64,000 nucleotides of DNA from Prochlorococcus sp. MIT 1223 (GTDB taxonomy: Bacteria > Cyanobacteriota > Cyanobacteriia > PCC-6307 > Cyanobiaceae), in NCBI RefSeq assembly GCF_034092465.1, contig NZ_CP139303.1, positions 834,865-898,864 of the forward strand. Direction: 5' to 3'. A program made the position numbers and the translations under genes. This document shows, piece after piece, positions 39,403-41,559 of the stretch. Under the pieces are notes generated by a model. It did not search any database and was not told the origin of the DNA. It was given only the letters and a program-made list of their open reading frames with translations. Within the stretch, counting starts at the first letter, position 1. The number at the start of each line of letters is the position of its first letter.

Positions 39403-39594
39403 TCAAGCCGAGCCTATACCTGTGTAGGAACCGTAGAAAAATATTCCTAAAACAAAAATAACGGCAATTCCCCCAGCAGTTGCTACTAGCCATAAAGGAA
39501 GAGCTCCTTCTGTCCAGCGCCTCTCCCAAGAAATAGCTGGACGTCCATCAGGGAGCCTATCCCCCAAACGTCCATCGGGTCCTTTGGTACTCAT
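39403..39594 (-). CDS. psbJ: Photosystem II protein J
   Basis: Single-span photosystem II subunit near cytochrome b559. The 63-residue protein has a polar N-terminus ([20 protein letters not shown]) and one membrane helix, then the conserved [14 protein letters not shown] end. Last gene of rubA-ycf48-psbE-psbL-psbJ. A possible weak stem TTATCAA...TTGATAA lies just past its stop at 39373-39401. Confidence 0.96.
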
Positions 39595-39614: not shown

Positions 39615-39734
39615 TTAGTTAAAGAAGTAGCTTGAAAAAAGAATTCCCATTACAAAAGTAAGAAGCAGTCCAAGATAAAGACTTGTTCTGTTCAACTCAA
39701 CAGGAAGTTTGTTTGGGTTGGGATTAACTTGCAT
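39615..39734 (-). CDS. psbL: Photosystem II protein L
   Basis: A 39-residue single-span subunit, required for electron flow on the photosystem II acceptor side. It begins [20 protein letters not shown] and ends SSYFFN, diagnostic of PsbL. It lies 20 bases upstream of psbJ. In the usual operon psbF stands directly before psbL; here psbE does, 34 bases away. Confidence 0.96.
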
Positions 39735-39768
39735 GGATAATAAAATGATCACTCAATGGTGATGTTGT

Positions 39769-40017
39769 TTATTTCAGGCGCAAATCAAGTTGAGCCTTGG
39801 AGTCAAATCTTTGAGTAACAACAGGAGCCTTCGATTCAGATCCTTGAAAGTAAGTATCTGGTCTAGGAGTTCCAAATGCGTCATAGGCAAGGCCTGAAGA
39901 TACAAATAGAAAACCTGCTACGAAGATAGCGGGAAGAGCCACTGCATGGATAATCCAATAGCGGACACTTGTAATGATCTCAAAAAACGGGCGTTCCCCT
40001 GTGGAGCCGGCAGCCAT
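39769..40017 (-). CDS. psbE: Cytochrome b559 alpha subunit
   Basis: Haem-binding subunit of cytochrome b559 in photosystem II. ATG 40017 gives 82 residues starting [20 protein letters not shown]; a longer frame from TTG 40029 is unlikely. The haem-ligand His is in [14 protein letters not shown] near residue 23. The lumenal [10 protein letters not shown] motif and intact end QLDLRLK show that the gene is complete. Its beta partner psbF, needed for the second haem histidine, does not follow as expected. Confidence 0.97.
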
Positions 40018-40124: not shown

Positions 40125-41141
40125 TTATCCAAGCCATCTCAATAAATTTCCTCTCTCTCCAAATACAAATCCTTTTGTCGTATCTCCTGGACCACTCTTT
40201 GTAAAAAGAATGCGAATAAAGTTAGTAGGAACCAAGTCTCCAACAGGATCTTTCTCCCATGATTCTCCACCATCCCTACTGGATAACAAGGTTCCATTGC
40301 CTCCTGCAGTCCAAATAATGTCGCTAGGGTCCCAAGCAATATCCAAATAGTTATATCCATTCAAAATAGGAATTATTGCTTTCCCCCAACTGTCTAAATC
40401 ATCTGAATCTTCAAGAAATCTGATTTCTGCCCCGCGAGAAAGCATCCATAAATCGCCATTTGGTTGCAAACCAACACTTTGTACTCTTTTGCTACTTGCT
40501 CTTTGATGTGGTTCCCAATTTTCTTGTCCCTGTGGAAGAACAGAGAAAAAATTACCTAAACTACTTACGCTTATATAACTTCCATCTTCATTCCTTCTCA
40601 AATCACGAATTCCACCAGAGCCTGAAGCATCAGAAACCAAACCTTCCCAATTTTTTCCAGAATCAATTGTTTTATAGATAGCACCTGCTGTAGTTGCCAG
40701 TTCAGCTGAATCTGGGCCTAGTGTTTTTATTAAATATGGATCTCCAGGCAATTTATTCCCCAATGAAAGACTAGTCCAATTTTTACCTCCATCATTTGTA
40801 TGAAGAACTAAACCAGGTTGACCAGCAATCCATCCTTCATCTCCAAGAAAGTCAACACTAACTAAACGAAAATTGTCTTCAGTAGGTATTTCTAAACTTC
40901 TCTCATGCCAGACCTTCCCACCATCATCTGTCTCTAAGATTAAACGTTCAGTCCCTACAAGAAATCCCTTCTGATCATTTACAAAGGAAATATCTAAAGG
41001 ATTGGATTCCGTCTCAAGGTTAACTATTTCCCAGGGACTAGAACTCGCTTGGGGAAGTCTTGTAGCAACACATCCGCTTAGGAAAAAACCAATAACGACT
41101 GTTAGTAATAAATTCAAAGATTTAGAGAAAAAACTATTCAT
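40125..41141 (-). CDS. ycf48: Photosystem II assembly factor Ycf48
   Basis: Lumenal seven-bladed propeller lipoprotein that binds precursor D1 and helps reaction-centre assembly. ATG 41141 gives a signal peptide with lipobox FFLSGC, so the longer frame from 41210, which runs into the rubredoxin gene, is rejected. Repeated VGTERLILETDDGGKVW, LVLHTNDGGKNW, AIYKTIDSGKNW and TLLSSRDGGESW blades are visible. Protein length is 338. It lies 13 bases after rubA and before psbE, a conserved cyanobacterial order. Confidence 0.95.
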   Translation of the reverse strand: MNSFFSKSLNLLLTVVIGFFLSGCVATRLPQASSSPWEIVNLETESNPLDISFVNDQKGFLVGTERLILETDDGGKVWHERSLEIPTEDNFRLVSVDFLGDEGWIAGQPGLVLHTNDGGKNWTSLSLGNKLPGDPYLIKTLGPDSAELATTAGAIYKTIDSGKNWEGLVSDASGSGGIRDLRRNEDGSYISVSSLGNFFSVLPQGQENWEPHQRASSKRVQSVGLQPNGDLWMLSRGAEIRFLEDSDDLDSWGKAIIPILNGYNYLDIAWDPSDIIWTAGGNGTLLSSRDGGESWEKDPVGDLVPTNFIRILFTKSGPGDTTKGFVFGERGNLLRWLG

Positions 41142-41154
41142 AACGATGAGACTT

Positions 41155-41559
41155 TTAACGCAGAGAATACAGAGAAAGGAAGCAAGCAGCAGCAAATGCC
41201 AAGCCTCCAAAAATTAATACATTTTTTTGCCCTGAGGGAAGAGTGTTAAAACCAAATCCATAACTAAGATTTTCGTCAAAACCACTAGGCTTAAGTCTAG
41301 AGCCTATATCTTTATAGGCATCAATACCCGATCTGCATACTGGACAGCGGAATTTAGATTTATCTATCTCTAAAAAGGCAGTGCCTTTAGGAATGTCAAA
41401 TTTCTTCAAACCCTCTTGAGGGTCATAGATATAGCCACATCCACAGCATTGAAATCGATGTTCTTTTATAGCTTCTTTTGAAGCTACAAGGATTTCATTA
41501 GTTGATGGATCCATTTGACCCGTCTTCTTGCTTTGGGAAACAGAGTTAACTTCATCCAT
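41155..41559 (-). CDS. rubA: Membrane-anchored rubredoxin RubA
   Basis: Rubredoxin needed for photosystem II (and I) biogenesis. The iron site is formed by [10 protein letters not shown] and CPVCRSGI, two CxxC pairs about 35 residues apart. A C-terminal membrane helix ([19 protein letters not shown]) anchors it. ATG 41559 gives [12 protein letters not shown] and 134 residues; a longer start at 41607 would come within three bases of the divergent ndhC start. First gene of rubA-ycf48-psbE-psbL-psbJ. Confidence 0.93.

Follow-up and report, generated by a model that had tools for sequence, protein, structure and literature searches.

The genome of Prochlorococcus sp. MIT1223 lacks the canonical psbF gene of the psbEFLJ operon, and its only remaining PsbF is a 101-residue "long form," encoded elsewhere, in which asparagine replaces the histidine that ligates the haem of cytochrome b559. 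With a probability of roughly 0.7, we think that psbF was deleted, that the long form fills the place of PsbF, and that cytochrome b559 in this organism has one histidine ligand and is either haem free or holds a low-potential haem whose ligation is weak or different. Cytochrome b559 has been regarded as the same across oxygen-evolving organisms.

The psbE-psbL junction in MIT1223 and its relatives

The window analysed here is a stretch of 64,000 nt from the MIT1223 genome, which is a single contig of 1,795,922 bp. The operon genes all lie on its minus strand. A gene for a ycf48-like photosystem II (PSII) assembly factor (40125..41210), called from its open reading frame and conserved position and named from sequence and synteny rather than by family search, with an approximate start codon, lies upstream of psbE. 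The psbE gene (39769..40017), for the cytochrome b559 alpha subunit (82 aa; TIGR01332, 119 bits), is separated by 34 bases (39735..39768, minus strand), where relatives have psbF, from psbL (39615..39734; 39 aa; PF02419, 78.7 bits; NF001972, 93.7 bits), beyond which lies psbJ (39403..39594; 63 aa as listed; PF01788; NF002722, 98.3 bits). Aligned with PSII chains E, MIT1223 PsbE keeps its haem histidine. These family searches confirmed each gene and so bore out an earlier note on this DNA, which had described psbE and psbL as whole, with 34 bases between them and psbF absent. No PsbF-like open reading frame was found in or near the gap, and the by-eye search that had found no PsbF in the intergenic gaps of the window was also right, the sole PsbF-like gene being located outside it.

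Comparison of this junction among related genomes, which the earlier note had proposed, showed that the loss is shared by some lineages and that the other picocyanobacterial lineages read keep psbF at the junction, with a psbE-psbF spacer of 1 to 4 nt where measured. MIT1223 belongs to genus g1 and to the LLVIII grade (PMC11559063, Table 3). The psbE-psbL gap is 34 nt in MIT1223 itself (G000), 33 nt in a second g1 genome (G002; 59% complete), in which the long form was not found, and 29 nt in six LLI genomes (G057, G172, G109, G129, G145, and G265); in a seventh LLI genome (G260), psbE is present and operon psbF is absent. In a further g1 genome (G001; 76% complete), the long form is present and the psbE operon was not recovered. 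Genus g56 was taken as LLI on the basis of its members AG-402-M23, AG-402-O21, and AG-402-L09, which have the same gene neighbourhood and are classed as LLI (PMC6370341). Loss of canonical psbF is common to the genus of MIT1223 and the LLI clade and is not unique to MIT1223.

Two other explanations for the empty junction were considered. The earlier note had allowed for a deletion introduced during assembly or sequencing, and we reject this as almost inconceivable because psbF is missing at the same place in the second LLVIII genome and in seven LLI genomes; moreover, MIT1223 was assembled as one scaffold at 236x coverage (PMC11559063, Table 3). The absence of psbF from the MIT1223 junction is thus confirmed as real. 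It is also conceivable that a canonical short psbF lies elsewhere in MIT1223, too diverged or too short to detect, given that very short genes can be missed. However, six-frame Pfam and protein searches of the whole genome, with E values of up to 10, returned psbE and the long form as the only two Cytochrom_B559 matches, with no third b559-family gene, and the same kind of search finds genes of 46 to 52 residues in relatives. We therefore consider a hidden short psbF very improbable.

A long-form PsbF paralogue with asparagine at the ligand position

Searching the rest of the genome for PsbF, as the earlier note had suggested, recovered the 101-residue long-form gene on the minus strand at G000:C1:700681-700986, outside the window and 174 kb from psbE. 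Its product, which starts MDFRLILVFTPIIFSLVFTVFWLTKWEVLKW, scored 63.2 bits against TIGR01333 (cut-off, 61.15), 37.7 against PF00283 (cut-off, 30), and 158.3 bits against NF002717, "cytochrome b559 subunit beta, long form" (cut-off, 153). Residues 59 to 96 align with PDB chains F, and an AlphaFold model places helices at residues 3 to 25 and 65 to 90, with a mean pLDDT of only 60 (low confidence). Outside the ligand site, the PsbF-type helix is nearly unchanged, residue by residue.

Canonical PsbF carries the motif RWLAVHALAIP, in which H ligates the haem. Asn75 of the MIT1223 long form aligns to the haem histidine of PDB chains F, and the bis-histidine pair formed by PsbE and PsbF is absent from the genome, which retains the PsbE histidine only. 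Asparagine occupies the ligand position in all long forms read (codon AAT in 120 readings and AAC in 17, from partly redundant loci and including four readings of one G014 protein), and histidine does so in all 51 operon PsbF readings, likewise from partly redundant loci, with no exception. The G014 long form (100 residues; RWLAINALGIP) has asparagine while still retaining tryptophan. A 30-residue core of the long form is encoded by 35 distinct DNA sequences in the case of one peptide and by 41 in the case of another; many DNA sequences thus specify the same 30 residues, and the core, including the asparagine, is therefore under purifying selection.

Besides the MIT1223 genus (g1) and LLI (g56), the long form occurs in LLII/III-type genera (g10, g39, and g16), HL (g17; many genomes, though not all), some of the large-genome members (g34), and g53, g36, and g13. 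In a phylum-wide sample of 386 genomes it occurred in 18, all of them in MIT1223's own family. A phage origin was considered and rejected after a search of viral contigs turned up no relative. The long form accompanies an intact operon psbF in many Prochlorococcus genomes of LLII/III and HL and in some larger-genome picocyanobacteria; whenever both were read, the operon copy was the short one, with histidine. In g1 and g56, by contrast, the long form was the only PsbF found; in the LLI genomes that were searched and gave a match, it was the only PsbF match, and psbF was absent from the psbE-psbL interval in those that were read. Because the two forms coexist in relatives, the long form is an older paralogue of operon psbF and not a relocated gene. 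The idea that psbF had moved thus held insofar as a psbF-like gene does exist elsewhere in the genome but failed as to its origin. Complete HL genomes with the long form usually also have canonical PsbF, and some HL genomes lack the long form; its ancestral role may therefore have been different, which counts against our explanation. One HL genome (G374; loci L082 and L083) has two long-form copies in addition to operon psbF.

Two uncharacterised membrane proteins, encoded at L006:5981-6577 and L006:7165-7566, flank long psbF and are possible partners. The same two surround it in L039-L070 and L141-L220 (LLVIII, LLI, and most HL), and neither had a match in Pfam or NCBIfam. The flavodoxin gene isiB (L006:7891-8412) adjoins this cluster in LLVIII and LLI. 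A general link between long psbF and iron stress was nevertheless rejected, since isiB did not appear in the flanking sequence retrieved, up to 3 kb, for the HL and LLII/III long-psbF loci.

The N-terminal module of the long form matched a PsbY profile with an hhalign probability of 93.8%, compared with 1.9% for PsbJ, 0.4% for PsbL, and 3.8% for PsbF as controls from the same organism group; against the PsbY family model NF009711, it scored 13.4 bits, below the cut-off of 48. On these comparisons, a relationship of the module to PsbY is likely but not proven. The best PDB match was chain F of 7YMI, which is entered as "Photosystem II protein Y" and is 99 residues long; of these, residues 4 to 47 match PsbF and residues 62 to 83 match the PsbY-like module; PsbF and PsbY are fused in this one chain in solved PSII (7YMI/7YMM). 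The 7YMI structure is the PSII-Pcb complex of Acaryochloris marina (PMC12661325). LLII/III and HL genomes have a separate psbY, and none was detected in LLVIII (g1) or LLI (g56). This gene was also undetected or very diverged in many other small-genome Prochlorococcus-like genera, and because some genera in which it was undetected have both histidines, psbY loss is not specific and a strict tie between it and ligand loss was rejected; the link is suggestive only. Arabidopsis plants without PsbY retain only the low-potential form of cytochrome b559 (PMC9214863). In Prochlorococcus MIT 9401, a 61-residue open reading frame directly after the HL long psbF (L204:3310-3495) repeats the PsbY-like module (MDIRFLIVGAPFLIAFFYTLFWLKKWGAF).

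Expected state of cytochrome b559

Among the explanations offered by the earlier note, a true loss with an altered cytochrome b559 is the best supported, as canonical psbF is gone and the remaining PsbF is without the haem histidine. We propose that, with canonical psbF deleted from its operon (psbEFLJ), its structural place in PSII would have been taken by the distant paralogue, a protein predicted to have two helices, the N-terminal one PsbY-like and the other PsbF-like, joined by a cytoplasmic-side linker of ~35 residues. Most likely, canonical psbF and psbY would have been lost after this combined PsbY-like/PsbF-like protein took over. We infer that the long form assembles into PSII at the PsbF site because its helix is otherwise nearly unchanged. 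With Asn75 in place of the haem histidine, cytochrome b559 of MIT1223 can have only one histidine ligand, that of PsbE, and would be either haem free or occupied by a low-potential haem that is weakly or differently ligated. Judged from the genes, cytochrome b559 is probably altered or haem free throughout LLI and LLVIII.

Published work bears on this proposal in both directions. PSII containing apo-b559 is viable and works at the wild-type level in Thermosynechococcus elongatus; in Synechocystis and Chlamydomonas, however, most haem-ligand mutants accumulate little PSII, which counts against our explanation (PMC9214863). In MIT9312, a "PsbF-like" gene (PMT9312_RS06075), which is probably the long form, is transcribed, and plastic leachate represses it along with other genes of PSII (PMC6517427). 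Proteomics of SS120 yielded peptides assigned to PSBF_PROMA (PMC5451487), an entry that could be either form of PsbF, and we left these peptides out of the evidence.

Replacement of PsbF by the long form could occur without loss of the haem, and this sub-case of our explanation, which is opposed to the haem-free reading, is a serious possibility to which we give somewhat less than an even chance. Here the PsbE histidine would serve on one side of the haem, with Asn75, water, or another residue opposite, giving a functional low-potential cytochrome b559. PsbE in LLVIII and LLI keeps its histidine together with the haem-pocket arginine and tyrosine (RYWIIH), which LLVII-type genera have lost, and the asparagine is invariant rather than drifting, which suggests that it has a specific role. 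On the other hand, the single-ligand changes H23A and H23M in T. elongatus PsbE gave apo-b559 (PMC9214863). Another alternative is that the long form serves another membrane complex and that PSII manages with PsbE alone, for example, with a PsbE-PsbE cytochrome b559 that has two histidines. In keeping with such a role, many genomes have both the long form and canonical PsbF, and the long form is linked to the two membrane proteins in LLVIII, LLI, and HL. Nevertheless, the close conservation of the PsbF-type helix at all but the ligand site argues against it; 59%-complete G002 is the only genome shown to be without operon psbF in which the long form was not found; and in model organisms PSII is blocked when subunits of cytochrome b559 are lost, according to work cited in PMC9214863. 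We thus regard a role outside PSII as unlikely and favor replacement of PsbF by the long form.

Independent ligand losses and comparison with known systems

In nine LLVII-related genera (g2, g12, g21, g41, g42, g46, g52, g55, and g57), it is the haem histidine of PsbE that is replaced, by glutamine (loci read, L110 and L251-L262, including that of the cultured strain MIT1307xe). The haem-pocket arginine and tyrosine are changed as well, so that the usual RYWIIH mostly reads KFWVIQ, and the operon PsbF keeps its histidine but has FF for WL before it. Going by these residues, the PsbE Gln lineages are a second, independent case of loss of a b559 ligand. Considered together with the PsbF Asn lineages, they indicate that one ligand was lost via different subunits in different low-light lineages.

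Loss of psbF itself may have occurred once or twice. In an rpoB tree, g1 and g56 form neighbouring but separate branches, corresponding to two changes, although a single g1-plus-g56 clade was not quite rejected (AU test, P = 0.055). A tree of Ycf48 and MtnP, encoded by neighbours of psbE, accepted the single clade (p-AU = 0.41), with MIT1223 represented by MtnP only.

We found no report in the open-access literature searched of operon psbF loss, of asparagine in the long form, or of glutamine in PsbE; the long form is already known, being named in NCBIfam, and ligand loss is apparently unreported in that literature. The boldest reading is that PSII in LLI and LLVIII, via PsbF, and in LLVII-type genera, via PsbE, contains a naturally haem-free cytochrome b559, the haem having disappeared on two or more occasions and by way of different subunits. 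We hold this reading tentatively, as one that could well prove wrong. If it is true, oxygenic photosynthesis in the dim ocean can do without the haem of cytochrome b559. With cultured strains that are without one ligand in either subunit, and close relatives that have both, the question would be directly testable in abundant ocean phototrophs. Such strains would also be a natural counterpart to the engineered mutants of the ligands, whose growth in Synechocystis and Chlamydomonas is poor.

Compared with canonical PsbF (TIGR01333; psbEFLJ operon), the long form shares the PsbF-type helix, AMQF included, but has ~100 rather than ~45 residues, an extra N-terminal helix, and a gene outside the operon, and it has asparagine for the haem histidine and threonine for the tryptophan four residues earlier. 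By score, the MIT1223 protein is a member of the NCBIfam "cytochrome b559 subunit beta, long form" (NF002717/NF002720); that entry names length only, whereas the MIT1223 member is the sole PsbF and is without the ligand. The fused PsbF-PsbY of A. marina (7YMI chain F) likewise joins a PsbF-like helix to a PsbY-like one within a single chain, but with PsbF first, the reverse of the order in the long form, and with the haem histidine kept, and it has been seen in solved PSII. Engineered b559 haem-ligand mutants of Synechocystis, Chlamydomonas, and T. elongatus resemble LLI and LLVIII in that one histidine ligand is replaced, and in the T. elongatus mutants PSII still assembles; those mutants are products of the laboratory, whereas in LLI and LLVIII the replacement is the natural, clade-wide state of ocean phototrophs.
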